Source: Thermodesulfobacterium sp. (GTDB lineage: Bacteria; Desulfobacterota; Thermodesulfobacteria; Thermodesulfobacteriales; Thermodesulfobacteriaceae). Taken from it: DNA of 64,000 bases. Both the position numbers and the translations under genes were made by a program. The notes beneath the pieces were generated by a model. That model did no database searches. It worked only from the letters and a program-made list of their open reading frames with translations, and had not been told where the DNA came from. Positions 3,144 through 64,000 of this stretch are shown piece by piece; the first letter of the stretch is position 1, and each line of letters starts with the position of its first letter. The stretch covers positions 33,339 to 97,338 of the forward strand of contig JACDNX010000008.1 of NCBI GenBank assembly GCA_017656385.1. Direction: 5' to 3'.

Positions 3144-6100
3144 ATGGATGTTAAATTTACAAGGAGGGATTTTTTAAAGTTATCCATAGGTTCTTTGGTT
3201 TTAAGCTCCTTAGGAATAAACTTAGAGCCTGTTAAAGCATATGCGAAAGAGCTCAAAATTAAGAATGCTAAAGAAACGACAACCATTTGTCCTTACTGTT
3301 CTGTGGGATGTGGAATTATTGTTTATTCTAAAGGAGGAAAGGTAGTAAATACAGAGGGAGATCCTGATCATGTTATTAGTAGAGGTAAGCTTTGTCCAAA
3401 AGGTGCTTCACTTTATCAGCTTGCCAATAATCCCACAAGACTTTTGAAACCACTCTATCGTGCACCCTATTCTGACAAATGGAAAGAGGTTTCTTGGGAC
3501 TGGGCTCTTGATAGAATTGCTAAACTGGTAAAGAAAACCAGAGACAAATATTTTATTTACAAAAACGAAAAAGGTCAGGTGGTAAACAGAGTGGAAGCAA
3601 TTGCCCATGTAGGTTCTGCTGCTCTTGATAACGAAGAGTGTTACATTTTACAAAAATTTTTGAGGGCGCTGGGAATTGTATATATAGAGCATCAGGCGCG
3701 TATATGACATAGTGCAACAGTGGCGGCTCTGGCAGAGTCGTTCGGAAGAGGAGCTATGACAAATCATTGGGTTGATATGAAAAACTCTGATGTAATTTTA
3801 GTAATGGGTGGAAATCCTGCTGAAAATCATCCAGTATCCATGCAATGGATACTCAAAGCTAAAAAAGAAAGAGGAGCAAAGTTAATTGTAGTTGATCCTA
3901 AATATACAAGAACAGCCTCTCAGGCAGATCTTTTTATTCAGATTCGTCCAGGAACAGATATAGCTTTTCTTGGAGGGTTGGTTAAGTATATTATTGATAA
4001 TGAACTTTACTTTAAAGACTACATAGTAAATTATACAGATGCAGCCTTTTTAGTAGATCCTAATTTTAAGGATACCGAAGATTTGGGTGGTGTATTTTCT
4101 GGATACGATCCTAAAAAGAAAAAATATAATAAATCCACTTGGAAGTATCAACTTGATGAGAATGGAATTCCCAAGAAGGATCCTACTTTAAAGGATCCTA
4201 ACTGTGTATTTCAGTTATTGAAAAAGCATTTTTCAAGATACACCATAGATGTGGTTTCTGAAATTACTGGTGCACCAAAAGAAAAGATTTTAGAGGCTTA
4301 CAAGATTTATGCTTCAACTGGAAAGCCGAACAGAGTTGCAACTGAATGTTATGCAATGGGATGGACTCAGCATACAGTGGGAACACAGAATATTAGATGT
4401 ATGGCAATTATTCAGCTCCTTCTCGGAAATATTGGAATGGCTGGTGGTGGAGTAAATGCATTAAGAGGAGAATCTAATGTTCAGGGTTCAACAGACATGT
4501 GTCTACTTTTCCACATTTTGCCTGGTTATTTACCTATGGTCAGAGCTTCTCATGTGGATTTGAAGACTTATATTAAAAAAACAACCCCTAAGAGTAATGA
4601 TCCCAAGAGTTTGAACTGGTGGAAGCACAGATCCAAATATATTGTTAGTCTGCTTAAGGCTTTCTGGGGAGATTATGCAACTCCTGAGAATGATTTTTGT
4701 TTTAACTACCTACCCAAACTTGACGACGGCAAAGCTTATAGCTGGTATGACCTTTTTGATGCTATGTATAAAGGTAAAATCAAAGGATTTTTTGCCTGGG
4801 GACAAAATCCTGCATGTTCCAGTGCTAATGCTAATAAAGCAAGACAGGCTCTTTCAAAGCTTGACTGGTTAGTATGTGTGAATCTTTGGGATAGTGAAAC
4901 AGCTTCTTTCTGGAAAGGACCTGGAATGGATCCAAAGAAAGTAAAAACAGAGGTATTTTTACTTCCGGCTGCAGCTTCAGTTGAAAAAGAAGGAAGTATT
5001 ACAAATTCTGGAAGATGGTTGCAATGGAGATACAAAGCAGTTGAACCACCTGGGGAAGCAAGACGCGATGCAGAGATTGTAGATGAGCTTTATAAAAGAA
5101 TAAAAGCTTTATATGAAAAAGAAGGTGGAGCTTTTCCTGATCCTATAGTTAAACTTAACTGGAATTATGGAGATGGTGAGGTAGATACTAAACTTATTGC
5201 TAAGGAAGTAAATGGATACTTTACCAAGGATACCACAGTTAAGGGTAAAAGATTTAGAAAAGGTCAACAGGTTCCCAATTTTGTTTACTTGAAGGATGAT
5301 GGATCAACTGCATGTGGAAACTGGCTTTATTCAGGAAGTTATACAGAAGAAGGAAATATGATGGCAAGGAGAGAGAAAATTGATCCTACAGGACTTGGAA
5401 TGTATCCGAAGTGGGCATGGTGCTGGCCTGTTAATAGAAGAGTTCTTTATAACCGTGCAAGTGTTGATCTGATGGGTAATCCATGGGATCCTGAAAGACC
5501 AGTTATTAAATGGAATCCTTCCACAAAGAAGTGGGTTGGAGATGTGCCTGATGGACCACAGCCTCCTCTTGCTCTTGGTGGTGTGTTGCCATTTATTATG
5601 AAACCAACAGGTGTAGGAACTATATTTGGAAAAGGTCGTGCAGATGGACCATTCCCCACACATTATGAACCTGCAGAGTCTCCATTTAAGAACATACTTT
5701 ATCCAAAAGTTAGAATTAACCCTGTTGCAAGGATATTTAAGGATACTCCTGTTGACAAATTGGTATTAGGTGGAGATCCAAGATTTCCTTATATTGCAAC
5801 TACATACAGAGTTACAGAACATTGGCAGACAGGTCTTATGACAAGGAATATGCCTTGGCTTCTTGAACTTGAACCTCAGGTATTTGTAGAGATGAGCAAA
5901 GAACTTGCTAAGGAGATTGGAGTAAAAAGCGGAGATAAAGTGATTGTTACTTCTCCAAGAGGAAAAATTTGGGCGATAGCAGTAGTTACTGAAAGAATTA
6001 AACCTTTAAGAATTGAGGGACATACTTGTCATATAGTAGGAATACCATGGCATTATGGATGGAGATGGCCTGAAGATGGAAGTGGAGGAGATAGTGTCAA

Positions 6101-6182
6101 CCTTCTTACTCCACCTGCTCATGATCCGAATACCTCTATTCAGGAAACTAAATGCTTTGCAGTAAATATAAAAAGGGCATAA
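3144..6182 (+). CDS. fdhA: Formate dehydrogenase catalytic (alpha) subunit, selenocysteine-containing; internal UGA read through
   Basis: One selenoprotein gene of 1012 residues interrupted at 3705-3707 by TGA, which falls at residue 188. The context HQARI-U-HSATVAALAESFGRGAMTNHW matches the FdnG family, where Sec ligates Mo/W. The N terminus is a twin-arginine signal (R7 R8, TRRDFLKLS), so the enzyme is exported folded. A [4Fe-4S] site (Cys49, 52, 56, 84) precedes the bis-MGD domains. The C-terminal molybdopterin dinucleotide-binding domain is intact, including GDKVIVTSPRGKIWA. It oxidises formate to CO2 with fdhB as electron acceptor. No cytochrome b subunit is nearby, suggesting the soluble periplasmic two-subunit type. 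The ribosome binding site is AGGGAGGTG. Two separate genes were considered and rejected because both halves align continuously across the TGA. Confidence 0.96.
3705..3745 (+). promoter_or_regulatory. Selenocysteine UGA and candidate bacterial SECIS hairpin
   Basis: The UGA at 3705-3707 is followed by a hairpin with stem GGCTCT (3725-3730), loop GGC (3731-3733) and stem AGAGTC (3734-3739), with one G-U pair. It begins about 18 nt after the UGA, the distance expected for a SelB-recognised bSECIS, and the short apical loop carries G residues as in known examples. The hairpin lies within the coding sequence. SelA, SelB, SelD and the Sec tRNA are not in this window. Confidence 0.7.
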
Positions 6183-32809: not shown

Positions 32810-33152
32810 AATCTATAAGTATTAATTTAACGAAGTTTTATTTTAGTGAGGTTTGAAATATTTGTCAACCATTTTATTGTTTATAGACTGACTGCTGTGA
32901 ATTTTTTAGAAGGTATATTCTAAGTTTACTTTGTAAATCTTATGGCTCCCGCATAATTTTTCTCAATTCTTTTTTTAATTCTTAATCTATAATTTTTATA
33001 ATATCAGATTTCTAATGGATTTAGAAAACGTTTCAGAGCTTTACGAATGAATTAATAAAGAGAAATTCGCCTTGTTATTATTTTATAGGCTACCAAATTG
33101 GTTACTAAGTAAGATTTAAGAATTTGAGATATTTGACTTTAATGAATTAAAG
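32810..33152. other. Intergenic stretch without a recognised gene
   Basis: About 340 bp of AT-rich DNA between cysC and the tRNA cluster. I see no coding signal, no strong hairpin and no clear repeat. It probably holds the cysC promoter on the minus strand and downstream sequence of the tRNA transcript. Confidence 0.6.
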
Positions 33153-33225
33153 AGCCGGCGGAGGGACTTGAACCCTCAACCTTGGGATTACAAATCCCAC
33201 GCTCTGCCGATTGAGCTACGCCGGC
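33153..33225 (-). tRNA. tRNA-Thr (anticodon TGT)
   Basis: Read on the minus strand it folds fully: acceptor GCCGGCG with CGCCGGC, a D-arm TAGCTCAATCGGCAGAGC, an anticodon stem GGGAT...ATCCC with loop TTTGTAA, and T-arm GAGGGTTCAAGTCCCTC. The anticodon is TGT (Thr). CCA is not encoded. Confidence 0.93.
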
Positions 33226-57514: not shown

Positions 57515-58860
57515 AAAAATTGTGTAAGTATTTATAGAGATTTTTCATTATAATACAGCCTCCATTTTGTAAGTCGAGGTAAATATTTGTTGAAGTTCAT
57601 AGCTAACAGCTCTTACAGTAGGCATTGGTTTTCTCCACCATCTGTCCTGAAGATTTGAAATCTGAATAAAAACATTTACCTCAAGAGACCTTTGAGATGG
57701 GAAATATCCCCCGAGTTCTGTTACCATTCCCTCAAGCCCAGAATTTATACTTTCCACAGCATTGGTGGAATATATGTGCTTCCTAACTTCCTGTGGATAT
57801 TCAAGAAATGCTAAGTAATTATCTCTTTTTTTAAAAAGCTGTTTTCCCCAATCCTCATTCTTTTCTTTTGCTATTTCACAAAGTTTATCAAAAATACTTT
57901 CTTCTTCTTGTTTGTCTATAGCAATTTTAAGCTTTAGAAACATAGCTTTAGCTTGACTATAAAGTTTTTTGTTCAATTTGCTTTTGAAATTTCTTTGGAG
58001 ATGTATAAGACAGAGTTTGTGTTTAGCATAGGGAAAAAGTTTTTTAATGACTTCAGTAAGTCCGGGAAAATCATCGGTAACAAATAGGAGAGGTCTTTTG
58101 AGTCCTCTATTTATAAGATCTTGGAGGATTTCTAACCAGAAGGCTTTGGATTCTTTACCTTTGAGGTACCAGAAGCCGAGGATGTGTTTAGTGCCAGTTA
58201 AGTCAATACCAAGAGCTATGAATAGGGAGATTTGGTGCAGAGCTTTTGTTTCGGGGTTTTTTAATTTTAGTCCAGTAAGCATCAATGAAGACAGCGAACC
58301 AATCTGGTTTAAGGGGTTGAGAGCGGTAGAAGTGGAGTTTTTCTTGGATGAAGTCAAGGACATCCTGGAGGGAGTCATCGGAGTAAGGGAGTCCAAGTTT
58401 TTTAAGGGTGCGTTATATTTGAGCTTTTGAGTAGCCATTAGCGAGCATGGCGATAAGCAGTTCTTCGTAGTCTTTATCTATTCGTTTCCAGGGAGGGGGA
58501 AGGATGGAGGGTCGGAAGGAGTTTCCGAATCTGACACGAGGGATTTTAAGGTTGAGGTTGCCGAAGGAGAGGTAAAGGTTTCTGTGGTAGAAGCCATTTG
58601 AGGAGTTTTCTGGGTGGGATTTAAGGAAGAATTCTCTTTCTTTAAGCATGATGGAGTTTAGAAGGGACTGAAGAAGGTGAGAGAGGATGGGCTTAAGTCC
58701 TTGAGATTTTTGCTGTTGGATAGATTTAACAATTTCTTCTAACCAGTCTTCGGGGAAGGAATAGGAGTATTTTTTAGGCATTTTTAACCTCCTTTATTAA
58801 AAACTCTATTCTTTAGTTTTTCTATTCAATTTACTCTCTTTTCCCCTTTACACAATTTTT
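57515..58860 (-). mobile_element. IS256-family insertion sequence (inactivated)
   Basis: The element is bounded by a 13-bp inverted repeat, AAAAATTGTGTAA at 57515-57527 and its reverse complement at 58848-58860, giving about 1346 bp, the right size for IS256. It contains one transposase gene on the minus strand. The flanking 8 bp on the two sides differ, so no target duplication is visible. Confidence 0.75.
57548..58781 (-). pseudogene. IS256-family (mutator-type) transposase, stop and frameshift
   Basis: The N-terminal 122 codons (58781 downward, start after AAAGGAGGTT) end at a TAA at 58413. The same frame continues after that stop as RTLKKLGLPYSDDSLQDVLD and FAVFIDAYW (first catalytic Asp), then a one-base shift near 58265 moves into the frame with NPETKALHQISLFIALGIDL, FVTDDFPGL (second Asp) and STNAVESINSGLEG (catalytic Glu region), ending at 57548. 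The frame that opens at 58438 is a shadow up to the shift. Two lesions mean it cannot transpose on its own. Confidence 0.85.
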
Positions 58861-58890: not shown

Positions 58891-59187
58891 ATGAGTAAAA
58901 ATCAGACAAATAAGACTCAATATGTATTAAAACTTCTCAGAGAAGAAAGTGTTGACAAAAATTTGTTTGAGGACAATACTCATGAAAAAATAGCGGAATC
59001 TATTTCAAGGTTAATAACAACTGAAGAGAAAAGAATTTCAATTGGATTAGAAGGGCCTTGGGGTTCTAGAAAATCGACTATAATCTCAATTTTGAAACGG
59101 AAACTTAAAGAAACTACCCTTTCTATTCTTTTGATTCAATTTGATGCATGGGCTCATGAAGGAGATCCACTTCGAAGGATTTTTCTT
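58891..59187 (+). pseudogene. KAP-family P-loop NTPase, N-terminal fragment
   Basis: About 99 residues of KAP NTPase: LREESVDKNLFEDNTHEKIA, ISIGLEGPWGSRKSTIISIL (Walker A with Arg where the family has Gly) and LIQFDAWAHEGDPLRRIFL. After about 59187 the frame runs 12 more codons of unrelated sequence to a stop at 59223. KAP proteins are membrane-associated NTPases often found in defence or mobile contexts. The altered P-loop and truncation make it non-functional. Confidence 0.7.
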
Positions 59188-59311
59188 TTGCGATTTGGTC
59201 GGATATTTCCAATTTTGGTCTAACTTTTGTCAAAAAAGAAATAAATATAAAAGAAGCTATAAAACTTGATAAAACCCCAACAATGACCGGATATAAAAAA
59301 TGTTCAAGCAT
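59123..59311 (-). pseudogene. Membrane protein fragment, N-terminal part
   Basis: 62 residues from the ATG at 59311, which has GGAGGGGA at the right distance. MLEHFLYPVIVGVLSSFIAS gives one membrane helix, followed by VRPKLEISDQIAKEKSFE, resembling the start of proteins with a single helix and a long cytoplasmic beta-rich domain. After about 59185 it runs into the antisense of the KAP fragment. I do not know its function. Confidence 0.45.
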
Positions 59312-60722: not shown

Positions 60723-61001
60723 ATGAAAAGATTAATCTTTTCACTTTTAGCTGTATTTTTACCTGGATTTAACTATGCTTATCCCGATAATTGTAAGTTA
60801 TTAGCATTTAGGAGGACAGATTATAAATGTCTTAGTGATTGTTAGAGTAAAGGTTATTCATATGGATATTGTAAAGAGCTTTGTAGCTATGATACTGAAA
60901 ATCTTTATGACTGGCGTCTTAGAACTGATTACAAATGTTTGTATGATTGCTTAGATGATGGTTACTCATATAGTTATTGCAAATACCTTTGTAGCTACTA
61001 A
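60723..61001 (+). pseudogene. Exported two-hairpin cysteine-rich protein with an in-frame amber codon
   Basis: Signal peptide MKRLIFSLLAVFLPGFNYAY, then two copies of a repeat. Copy 1 is TDYKCLSDC, TAG at 60843-60845, SKGYSYGYCKELCSY; copy 2 is TDYKCLYDCLDDGYSYSYCK followed by YLCSY. Each copy is CX3C-x9-CX3C. The TAG stands where copy 2 has Leu (TTA), so a single T-to-A change of TTG would create it. As it stands translation ends after 40 residues. The ribosome binding site is GAAGAGGT. Fold and function unknown; the twin CX3C pattern predicts a disulfide-locked helical hairpin. Confidence 0.7.
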
Positions 61002-61010
61002 AAAATTGCT

Positions 61011-61439
61011 ATGAAAAAAGAAATTCTTTTGAATATTTTGTTAATGTTTGTATTTGTATGTTTTGCTTTTGCAGATGAACATGAGAAATGTTTAGAAAGT
61101 TGTAGTAAAATATTTAGAGATTGTATAAATTTATGTAAAGAAACAACATGTTTCAATGGTTGTGAACATGGATATGATATCTGTATAGATAAATGTCGTC
61201 ATTCCAGTCTTTCTCTCTATAAAGAACGAGAAATAAAAGAAGTAGAATACCAAAAATGTTTAGATAGATGTGATCAATCCTATAAAAGAACAAGAAGTTT
61301 TTGTAATATAGGATGTTTTCCTGCTACATTTAGCAGTGTTAGTGGCGCGTACCTTATTTGTGTAGGTGATTGTGTTAAAGAGGCTGAGAAAGACAGAAGT
61401 GAATGTTATCAAAGATGTGTTCTTAGATATAAATACTGA
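61011..61439 (+). CDS. Exported protein with four twin-CX3C hairpins (16 paired cysteines)
   Basis: 142 residues. Signal peptide with AFADE cleavage region. All 16 cysteines of the mature protein fall in eight CX3C units: Cys27/31, 38/42, 47/51, 58/62, 83/87, 98/102, 117/121 and 132/136, which pair as four hairpins with loops of 6, 6, 10 and 10 residues. Helical, charged sequence lies between. There is no match to CxxCH haem or CxxC metal sites. It starts 9 bp after the previous gene. I do not recognise a named family; structural analogy is to CHCH/alpha-hairpinin folds. Probably periplasmic and disulfide-bonded, or metal-binding. Confidence 0.8.
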   Translation: MKKEILLNILLMFVFVCFAFADEHEKCLESCSKIFRDCINLCKETTCFNGCEHGYDICIDKCRHSSLSLYKEREIKEVEYQKCLDRCDQSYKRTRSFCNIGCFPATFSSVSGAYLICVGDCVKEAEKDRSECYQRCVLRYKY

Positions 61440-61457
61440 AGATTGCAGGGGGTGAAA

Positions 61458-61844
61458 ATGAAAAGATTAACCTTTTTACCTTTGATCCGCTTTTTAATCT
61501 TACTTCTTACAGGAGTTTTAACTTTTTATGTTTATGCGGATACTCAAGTTCTAACAATTTCAGATATTTTAGATCATCCTGATAAATATCATTTAAAAAC
61601 TGTTCAGGTAAAAGGTAAGGTATTAGATGTGAAACATAAAGTTTCTAAAAAAGGAAATGAATATACAGTTTTTGTTTTATCAGATGGAAAGGCAAGTATT
61701 AAAGTATTTACCTTTGGAACCCCTGAAATTAATATCGGAGATGTGGTTAAAGTAGAAGGAATTTTTTATAAAGTAAAGCATGTCGGAAAATATACTTTTT
61801 ATAATGAAATTGATGCATCAAAAGGACTGATAAAAAGAGAATAA
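61458..61844 (+). CDS. Exported OB-fold protein
   Basis: 128 residues from the ATG at 61458, which follows GGGGGTG (a TTG at 61443 is rejected). An N-terminal membrane segment or signal FLILLLTGVLTFYVYA precedes LTISDILDHPDKYHLKTVQV, GKVLDVKHKVSKKGNEYTVF, KVFTFGTPEINIGDVVKVEG, the five-strand pattern of a secreted nucleic-acid-type OB fold. Binding partner unknown. It lies inside the cysteine-rich cluster but has no cysteine itself. Confidence 0.7.
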   Translation: MKRLTFLPLIRFLILLLTGVLTFYVYADTQVLTISDILDHPDKYHLKTVQVKGKVLDVKHKVSKKGNEYTVFVLSDGKASIKVFTFGTPEINIGDVVKVEGIFYKVKHVGKYTFYNEIDASKGLIKRE

Positions 61845-61846
61845 AA

Positions 61847-62404
61847 ATGAAAAGATTAATCTTCTTTACTGGATTTTTACTTTTAACTATGTTTTTGTTT
61901 GAGTTTAATTATGGTTATTCTCAAAAAAATGATTTTGAAGAAGCTATAAAGGAAAAAATTATAAAGGTTTGTAAAGAATATTGTAGGATTTATAATAGTC
62001 CAAAATTTTGTAAAAGAATTTGTGAAGTTGAGATTTCTGATCCAAGATGGATTTTTTTGGGTTTTGATAGCTCTGGATCAGCTCGTTTTTATGATTCTAA
62101 AAGCTTATCTACTTCTGATAACATTGTTAAAGTATGGGTGAAAATAATATATTCAGAAAGAGCAAAACAAGAGTATATAAAAGAAAAGGGAAGAAAATAT
62201 GAAAATTTAGACCTTAGTTTGGATTTACTTGAAATTGATTGTACTAAAAAAATTTTTCAAATATTAAGCTTTATTTATTATGCTTCAGATGGTTCAGTTA
62301 TAGATAGTTATGATTACCCCGAATTTTTAGCTGATTGGAATCCAATTCCTCCAGATTCAATGATAGAAGCTTTATTTAAAAAAATATGCCAAGTTAAGGA
62401 ATAA
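61847..62404 (+). CDS. Exported protein: twin-CX3C hairpin joined to an adhesin-E-like domain
   Basis: 185 residues, signal peptide at the N terminus. CKEYCRIYNSPKFCKRIC is a CX3C-x8-CX3C hairpin. From DPRWIFLGFDSSGSARFYDS through VKVWVKIIYSERAK, LLEIDCTKKIFQIL and DWNPIPPDSMIEALFKKICQ the protein follows the surface-adhesin E (PF16747-type) pattern, including the two Cys that would form its disulfide. It starts 2 bp after the OB-fold gene. A surface or periplasmic role is likely. Confidence 0.7.
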   Translation: MKRLIFFTGFLLLTMFLFEFNYGYSQKNDFEEAIKEKIIKVCKEYCRIYNSPKFCKRICEVEISDPRWIFLGFDSSGSARFYDSKSLSTSDNIVKVWVKIIYSERAKQEYIKEKGRKYENLDLSLDLLEIDCTKKIFQILSFIYYASDGSVIDSYDYPEFLADWNPIPPDSMIEALFKKICQVKE

Positions 62405-62478
62405 GGAATAAATAAGATAAGTTGAGATTAGGACTAACACACTTCCTACTTCCTCATAAACTGGTTTTCTTTATAAAG

Positions 62479-62494
62479 CCTGACTAAAGTCAGG
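62479..62494 (+). terminator. Weak hairpin after the cysteine-rich cluster
   Basis: CCTGAC and GTCAGG form a 6-bp stem around TAAA, about 75 bp after the last plus-strand gene and followed by TCTTTTATTT a few bases later. It could end the cluster transcript. Confidence 0.35.
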
Positions 62495-62615
62495 AATGTC
62501 TTTTATTTCGCTCGTATATATAATTGAAAAAAGAAATTGTAAATAAGAACTTAAAAAAGAGATTTTTGTTTTTAAAAATTTGAAAAAATTTTGCTTTTAA
62601 ACCATGTTATAAACT

Positions 62616-62771
62616 TTAATAAGAACATATTTCTTTGCAATAATCATATGAATAACCAGCTTCATAAAAACAATCATTAAAACATTTATAATCTACTTGT
62701 TTCCAAGCAAAAGAAATATTAACAAAGAGAAAACTAAACAATAAAATTACAAAAATTAAAACTTTTTTCAT
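62616..62771 (-). CDS. Exported single twin-CX3C hairpin protein
   Basis: 51 residues, too short for most gene callers. Signal peptide MKKVLIFVILLFSFLFVNIS then FAWKQ, followed by one repeat VDYKCFNDCFYEAGYSYDYC and KEICSY. It matches the repeats of the 60723 gene residue by residue (DYKC-x3-C ... GYSYxYCK-x2-CSY), which makes it very unlikely to be a chance frame. It is convergent with the cluster. The ribosome binding site is weak. Confidence 0.72.
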   Translation of the reverse strand: MKKVLIFVILLFSFLFVNISFAWKQVDYKCFNDCFYEAGYSYDYCKEICSY

Positions 62772-63222
62772 TTTTTATAGATTGTGTCTTAATAATTATA
62801 TTTAAAATATAGCATAAAAAGTAATTGGAGTCAAGGGAGTTTGTTAGCGGAAAGTTCCTATATAGTAAATACTACAGCCTCTTAGGTAAGAAGGGAAACT
62901 AAAAACTTATAAGGTTATTTTAACTTACTATATAGTAGCCATCCATCAAAATGTTTTTAATACCCGTTACTTTCATGCTATCTTTTCAGACACAGTTATT
63001 GATACATAACCACAATAATTTTTTTCAATAAAAAGGATACATATATAGCATTACTTATATTTCTGAAGTTTAAAAATAGTGCAGCTTGTAGAAGACTTTT
63101 GATGTAGGCAATGATCTTTGTTACTTACATTCTTGACGGAATAAAATTAAAGTTTTACCTTATGATTATTTAAAACATTCAAAAAATTGTATCTATAATT
63201 TTTTTAAAAAAATCGATAAAAA
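62772..63222. other. Intergenic stretch with an inverted repeat
   Basis: 450 bp. CTATATAGTAA at 62858-62868 and its exact reverse complement at 62935-62945 bracket 66 bp. This could be the ends of a small non-coding mobile element or an AT-rich operator. No gene is seen. Confidence 0.4.
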
Positions 63223-63615: not shown

Positions 63616-63966
63616 ACAATTAACAACTTAAGGTTGTATCAATAATTTTGTGTAAACCAAACTTAAGAATACTTCTTAAAATACATCTTTCTTAATCTTC
63701 TCTTTAGATTCTAAAAATTGGTATTTACGGAGTGTTCTTCATAAAGTTATCCTAATTTTTTAAAAAATTTTTCAATCCACTTTTCATTCTTTTTTGACCG
63801 AAAAGAAATGGGGGAAAATTTTATCACTCAGATTTATAGTTAACCTCTTTATTTAATTATTATAACTGGGTGCAAACTGGGTGCAAAATGCACCCAAAAA
63901 TCCTCTGAAATCGATTGAAATCGATTGGAATAAATTTTTGAAAACCCTGATTATTTCTTGAAAAGC
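63616..63966. other. Intergenic stretch with short tandem repeats before a tRNA
   Basis: 350 bp without a full gene. AACTGGGTGCA is repeated exactly head-to-tail (63864-63874, 63875-63885) followed by the inverted TGCACCC (63889-63895), and TGAAATCGAT is repeated (63906-63925). In one plus frame this reads TGCKLGAKCTQKSSEID then a stop, similar to the tails of tyrosine integrases that sit beside tRNA attachment sites. Confidence 0.45.
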
Positions 63967-64000
63967 TGGTGGGCCGTGGAGGACTCGAACCTCCAACCTA
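63967..64000 (-). tRNA. tRNA, 3' part only (CCA encoded; identity not determined, Ile-like)
   Basis: On the minus strand the visible part is a T-arm GGAGGTTCGAGTCCTCC followed by the 3' acceptor strand ACGGCCC, discriminator A and CCA (63967-63969). The anticodon is beyond the window. The acceptor sequence would suit a GGGCCGT 5' end, as in several tRNA-Ile(GAT) genes, but this is not proof. Confidence 0.85.

Follow-up and report, generated by a model that had tools for sequence, protein, structure and literature searches.

Small genes for paired-cysteine proteins in a Thermodesulfobacterium contig belong to several sequence families, one of which recurs in viral contigs

Positions 60723 to 62771 of a 64,000-nucleotide stretch of Thermodesulfobacterium sp. 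DNA (contig JACDNX010000008.1; this whole stretch is called the window here) hold a cluster of small genes for proteins with export-like leaders and paired CX3C motifs. The original prediction treated four of them as one system of exported cysteine hairpins. We find that the cluster is real and under-described, but that it is not a four-gene system: the stretch consists of five genes, and its hairpin proteins form three sequence families, not one. The family named here after its DYKC motif is an undescribed group whose proteins have an export-like leader and one to three units, and it recurs in environmental viral contigs. As a tentative reading, the hairpin proteins would reside in the cell envelope, and those of the DYKC type would block the DNA entry of competing phages in the manner of the phage protein Ltp. 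The claim of a sequence family is strong, while a function in superinfection exclusion is something we infer from gene position and analogy. The five genes are as follows.

60723..61001, plus strand: broken two-unit DYKC gene (translation with one stop, profile, same-genus relative L003)
61011..61439, plus strand: 142-residue protein with eight CX3C motifs (translation, predicted helices, five database relatives)
61458..61844, plus strand: 128-residue protein whose leader looks export-like, matched weakly by an OB-fold profile (PF01336, under cut-off)
61847..62404, plus strand: 185-residue protein with a leader, a CX3C-X8-CX3C hairpin and an Adhesin_E domain (PF16747)
62616..62771, minus strand: one-unit DYKC protein of 51 residues with a leader (profile, AlphaFold hairpin, database relative P0001)

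The leaders of all proteins were assessed by eye, and those of members outside the window also by a simple count of hydrophobic runs. The clustering of CX3C pairs in the 2-kb stretch is more than chance. The pattern CX3C-X4-20-CX3C is present in 5 of the window's 1753 stop-to-stop frames of at least 20 residues, four of which lie inside 60723..62771, while shuffling of residues within frames gave a mean of 0.485 such frames per whole window. The same four-cysteine (4C) motif, CX3CX4-20CX3C, is one of the criteria applied to alpha-hairpinins and is found in frames 60846-60998, 61011, 61847, and 62616. Four CX3C-unit genes had been predicted within these 2 kb; the pattern is borne out, but 60723 is not an open gene, and its description as a two-unit gene fails at a TAG codon (60843-60845) that cuts the first unit. 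The other three were read correctly, with four units (eight CX3C motifs in 142 residues) in 61011, one unit joined to an adhesin-E-like domain in 61847, and one unit on the opposite strand in 62616. Nearly all cysteines had been placed in this pattern, which agrees with 16 of 17 in 61011 and four of four in 62616.

The DYKC module is 25 residues long and has the core DYxC...GYxYxYC...CSY. A profile was built from 35 units outside the window, with the window's own units absent from the training set. This profile matched 62616 with an expect value (E) of 1.1e-08 (frame 62619-62774) and 60723 with an E of 6.1e-14 (frame 60846-60998), or 2.5e-19 when an X replaced the stop; among 20,000 shuffled cysteine-rich frames, the lowest E was 0.0046. 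The hairpins of 61011 and 61847 were not matched by it, and the genes are not one family. These two proteins and the DYKC genes have a common architecture and partly common leaders, with no ancestry detectable by sequence. In 60723, the leader and half of unit 1 are followed by the in-frame TAG, the remainder of unit 1, and unit 2; downstream of the stop, the frame has no ATG and a single TTG, which lies inside unit 2. Its relative L003 (55 residues), from the same-genus genome G011, has a sense codon at the TAG position, and the L003 frame itself stops within unit 1, before the last cysteine. The protein 62616 carries its cysteines (30, 34, 45, and 49) within its one unit and is 94% identical to P0001. 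A search with 62616 gave matches in 9 of 79 genomes at E<=0.1, the window's own included; besides the own genome, only the match in G011 reads as a DYKC relative.

Outside the window, a DNA pattern for the DYKC unit hit 53 stretches of the species-genome collection. In viral contigs it hit 23, and the reversed pattern, run as a control on these contigs only, hit three. The profile confirmed 19 of the 53, of which L076 and L088 look like chance and were removed by eye. The remaining 17 chromosomal members comprise 15 records from Alpha-, Beta-, and Gammaproteobacteria, one from Bacillota (L097), and one from another bacterium (L104). Two of the chromosomal relatives, L063 and L070 from Rhodocyclaceae, have two units each and one neighbor gene in common. 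Among 65 viral loci obtained with three DNA patterns, 24 were profile-positive; removal of L115, L122, and L125, whose proteins are identical, left 21 distinct proteins on 23 contigs. Loci from a separate related-locus search, whose contigs are largely identical, are not counted in the 21. Since the profile was trained on several outside members, their passing is no independent test. After the leader, members carry a single unit or two, and L106 carries three. In the window's phylum, 395 genomes were searched with the unit profile at E<=0.05; nine matched, the own genome included, and only L045 (genome G188) reads as a member with two units. By sequence, the DYKC unit extends beyond the window's group, with clear members in three proteobacterial classes and in viral contigs.

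This recurrence comes without a significant match to named families. Scans of the window units and four outside members against Pfam and NCBIfam gave none over curated cut-offs; the nearest Pfam miss was Big defensin (PF14862; one member, E of 5.5e-05, 23.6 bits, cut-off 25), and Ole_e_6 was found below its cut-off in all four outside members scanned (E of 6.3e-05 to 0.0064). In PHROGs, the best E over the four outside members was 0.013, and the window units had no match at E<=0.1.

The viral genes stand in varied places. A repressor lies upstream of 4 of the 21 viral proteins, namely L108, L111, and L116 (Peptidase_S24 plus a helix-turn-helix domain) and L118 (HTH_3 alone). L108, L111, and L118 start within 6 bases of the repressor or overlap it; L116 begins 250 bases after it, with a small lipoprotein-like open reading frame in between. 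L108 and L111 are different two-unit copies, each with its own repressor, on one 44.8-kb contig (IMGVR_UViG_3300024982_000004). Elsewhere, L175 is one gene away from a divergent repressor, L169 is directly behind an integrase/invertase, and L121 is inverted between two forward genes. These scattered places and the genes' own orientation give them the look of added cargo genes, and the repressor-side cases suggest expression in lysogens. By eye, a lipoprotein-like leader precedes the unit in 2 of the 21 (L175 and L195), and the leaders of the other viral members show no clear lipobox. In two related phage-type loci, L117 and L104, the order is the same: a CsrA-like regulator directly upstream (L117:4346-4636 and L104:2035-2361), the DYKC member, and a terminase, the last identified by eye in L104.

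The tentative mechanism would run as follows. Leaders would send the small cluster proteins to the envelope, where disulfides between paired CX3C motifs, made by a VKOR-like host enzyme, would lock two helices together as a hairpin. A DYKC gene carried by a phage would be expressed in lysogens, and its hairpin would block the incoming DNA of rival phages, as in superinfection exclusion of the Ltp type. The window has one broken and one intact DYKC gene; both would be remnants or domesticated forms of such phage cargo, in disturbed surroundings close to a probable transfer RNA (tRNA) gene and a broken transposon. If lysogens are indeed protected in this way, the DYKC protein would count as an anti-phage device of very small size in the envelope. 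The broader proposal, that bacteria and temperate phages have in common a family of exported, disulfide-stapled mini-hairpins as repressor-side exclusion devices, and that the window bacterium's own array shuffles leaders, hairpins, and an adhesin domain, strikes us as doubtful.

The predicted structure is consistent with the first steps. AlphaFold placed helices at residues 28-38 and 42-49 of 62616, with a predicted local distance difference test score (pLDDT) of 93-95 for blocks of residues 31-50 and a predicted template modeling score (pTM) of 0.45 for the whole model. The Pfam VKOR profile matched 19 of 60 genomes, four of them over cut-off. One of the proteins below cut-off, from genome G002, has a VKOR-like relative in the window's own genome (G000:C12:22337-23095, E of 4.9e-56), and VKOR-like matches at E<=1e-5 were found in all 10 same-genus genomes searched, the own genome included. 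Such a relative means that a route to disulfides probably exists. By eye, the VKOR-like proteins L158:1066-1941, L157:1066-1908, and G000:C12:22337-23095 carry a thioredoxin-like CPHC or CKHC motif, and in L157 and L158 a ThiC-like gene adjoins the VKOR-like gene. Both the hairpin and the export are predictions, and we infer the disulfides, which in 62616 would be expected at 30-49 and 34-45. The disulfide-locked helical hairpins outside the cytoplasm that had been proposed thus gain from the predicted helices and the VKOR-like relative, but DsbA was not found.

Several results weigh against an exclusion function or its individual steps. The model of the DYKC unit had no match in the PDB at E<=0.001 (best E of 8.2). 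DsbA (PF01323) was not detected in the window's genome, and the Pfam VKOR profile missed that genome. No integrase, terminase, or tail genes were recognized by eye or by domain scans among the open reading frames listed near the cluster; the window's DYKC genes, unlike the four viral members, have no CI/XRE repressor upstream; and no phage gene was recognized in the stretches read around the Rhodocyclaceae relatives. Within the viral set, only 4 of the 21 proteins lie behind a repressor, a fraction that has no baseline for small phage genes in that position. Terminase or portal genes are near six others (L112, L114, L117, L166, L192, and L199) and replication genes near two (L110 and L194); the scan for the L166 terminase used L140, which is the same contig, and that for the L194 neighbors used L139. 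PADLOC gave no DYKC match at E<=0.01. When 50,697 named phage records were searched in protein mode, nothing came up at E<=1, or only matches at E>=3, and no cultivated phage is known to have a DYKC member. The lack of a clear match in these records points to carriers that have yet to be cultivated.

The 16-cysteine protein 61011 has 17 cysteines, one in its leader and the rest in CX3C motifs. Its model, from six input sequences, has helices at residues 3-40, 45-101, and 113-140, with a mean pLDDT of 79 and a pTM of 0.50. The cysteine spacings are 4-7-4 opposite 4-7-4 and 4-11-4 opposite 4-11-4; judged from this spacing, disulfides between the 16 cysteines could stack as two long ladders with four rungs per hairpin, the expected rungs being 27-62, 31-58, 38-51, and 42-47 in one and 83-136, 87-132, 98-121, and 102-117 in the other. 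Among its five relatives in a large protein collection, P0004 lacks C102 and C117, which together make one rung, but has two new cysteines in an insert, and in P0005 nothing corresponds to C47 and C51, two cysteines that the ladder model does not pair with each other; both observations speak against the ladders. The N-terminal half of P0005 has another spacing and fits poorly, possibly through misalignment. Among 79 genomes searched, the protein turned up in the window's own and in none of the 78 others. A profile search of 297 genomes gave four further weak matches, one of which (L021) is a lipoprotein-like frame with CX3C-X6-CX3C twice.

Near-identical DNA directly follows the start codons of 60723, 61458, and 61847; with up to two mismatches it has five matches in the window, three of them at these genes, where 0.82 were expected. 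A palindrome, AAAAGATTAATCTTTT, lies at 60726-60741, 61461-61476, and 61850-61865, as one exact copy and two with one mismatch each. It may be a mere trace of the common leader start, or a regulatory site. Recombined parts were seen by eye among database relatives: P0006 has an Adhesin-type leader fused to the C-terminal half of a 61011-type protein, P0019 is an Adhesin_E protein with a leader of the OB-gene type, and P0023 has an additional cysteine-rich region.

An exported OB-fold gene had been described as embedded in the cluster. The gene 61458 does have an export-like leader by eye, but its match to PF01336 (E of 4.6e-05, 23.7 bits) is below the cut-off of 27; a distant relation is possible. 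In 61847, by comparison, residues 68-182 match Adhesin_E over cut-off across profile positions 1-109 of 109 (E of 3.6e-13, 50.1 bits, cut-off 23.7). A search with 61847 gave 18 matches, itself among them. The alignment leaves out P0007 (the window's own protein) and two short sequences, P0021 and P0024, and has L015 as an addition; C42, C46, C55, C59, and C132 are invariant in all 17 aligned rows, which include P0015 and L015, two sequences that overlap almost completely. Relatives of 61847 occur in 5 of 79 genomes and those of the OB-fold gene in 2 of 60, the own genome included in both counts. In G014, which is of another genus, the OB-fold gene (81% identity) adjoins the 61847 relative (60%), and this is the sole gene pair seen together in two genomes, G000 (the window's genome) and G014. 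As a single system, the cluster is not supported, with homologues otherwise scattered. This is, for the most part, the outcome that the original prediction had named as counting against it; the other such outcome, a match to a characterized family, applies to the Adhesin_E domain of 61847 only.

The conserved pair and the Adhesin_E match over cut-off speak for taking the cluster as structural or surface adhesion proteins, in which the Adhesin_E and OB-fold genes would be the working part and the hairpins, invariant in the 17 rows, stabilizing modules. This would cover 61847 and 61458 only, as the phage one- and two-unit DYKC proteins are without such domains, and the Pfam name says little on function in this bacterium; we consider it unlikely. 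A host role in metal handling or thiol buffering, with the cysteine pairs binding metal or countering oxidants in the periplasm, would suit the high cysteine content and a genome without detectable DsbA. Copper-storage bundles are all-helical. The predicted all-helical 61011 had copper-storage chains in its Foldseek list, only at an E of 5.5 and above, and there was no Pfam copper-storage match. The cysteines form facing pairs in hairpins, as for disulfides, a VKOR-like relative is present, and no enrichment in histidine or methionine was noted by eye. Phage carriage and repressor-side placement would also be left unexplained, and this role is distinctly unlikely.

The hairpins might instead be secreted antimicrobial or toxin-like peptides directed at competing bacteria, like the alpha-hairpinins of plants. 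The CX3C-X4-20-CX3C pattern, the leader, and the modular multi-unit precursors fit the alpha-hairpinin criteria given in passages of PMC11591084, and the sub-threshold Ole_e_6 (four of four members) and Big defensin (one member) matches point the same way. Counted from the first unit on, however, net charge ranges from -3 to +2 in the 21 viral members (median, +1) and is -1 and -2 in the window units, near-neutral values that speak against a cationic antimicrobial peptide. No immunity partner was recognized by eye beside the viral members read, where no dedicated search was made, and two members have lipoprotein-like leaders; we regard such peptides as quite improbable. Finally, the region may simply be decaying, with small orphan genes that evolve fast and have no common role. 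The broken 60723, the broken transposase and NTPase fragment nearby, and the patchy distribution could be cited for this, but it is very improbable, as four of the five 4C motifs in the window fall within 2 kb, the hairpin cysteines are invariant in relatives, and 62616 and 61011 have been kept open.

The surroundings of the cluster show further irregularities. A Mutator-type transposase at 57548-58781 is split over two overlapping frames, and a 110-residue fragment of a KAP-family P-loop NTPase lies at 58891-59223, with the profile covering its first part only. The window ends together with its contig (C8) at 63966-64000, by eye within the 3' part of a probable minus-strand tRNA gene, and an 18-base piece there matches one place within the tRNA-Thr gene 33152-33225 with three mismatches. 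Far from the cluster, a formate-dehydrogenase-like gene identified by eye at 3144-6182 has one in-frame stop after IEHQARI, resembling a selenocysteine codon.

Among known systems, the small Tim chaperones of mitochondria are eukaryotic proteins in which twin CX3C motifs pair two helices, as is proposed for the DYKC unit. The Adhesin_E family (PF16747) is matched over its whole profile by the C-terminal domain of 61847, which has the N-terminal CX3C hairpin in addition. Ltp, whose hosts are Gram-positive, appears to be the best analogue of the DYKC proteins. In Streptococcus thermophilus phage TP-J34, Ltp has a lipid anchor and, behind a spacer, its active repeat domain; its gene belongs to the lysogeny module and is transcribed in the prophage, and the repeat domain stops DNA injection, as described in passages of PMC3952083. 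On the DYKC side, the counterparts would be the leader (lipoprotein-like in 2 of 21), a linker, one or two units, and the repressor upstream in 4 of 21. The likeness drawn here is one of layout and position, and the word cysteine is absent from the main text of PMC3952083. SieA of phage P22, described in parts of PMC10883804 as a prophage-expressed envelope protein that blocks DNA entry, follows the same principle as that proposed for DYKC, but it spans the inner membrane several times, has no obvious signal sequence, and is not a cysteine hairpin. With the alpha-hairpinins, as passages of PMC11591084 present them, the DYKC proteins have in common the CX3C-Xn-CX3C arrangement, a helix-loop-helix (predicted for DYKC), a leader (judged by eye for DYKC), and multi-unit precursors; they differ in a core sequence of their own and in a near-neutral charge as opposed to the cationic type, and alpha-hairpinins are described there from plants. 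It is this same four-cysteine layout in plant defense peptides that gives the comparison its wider interest.

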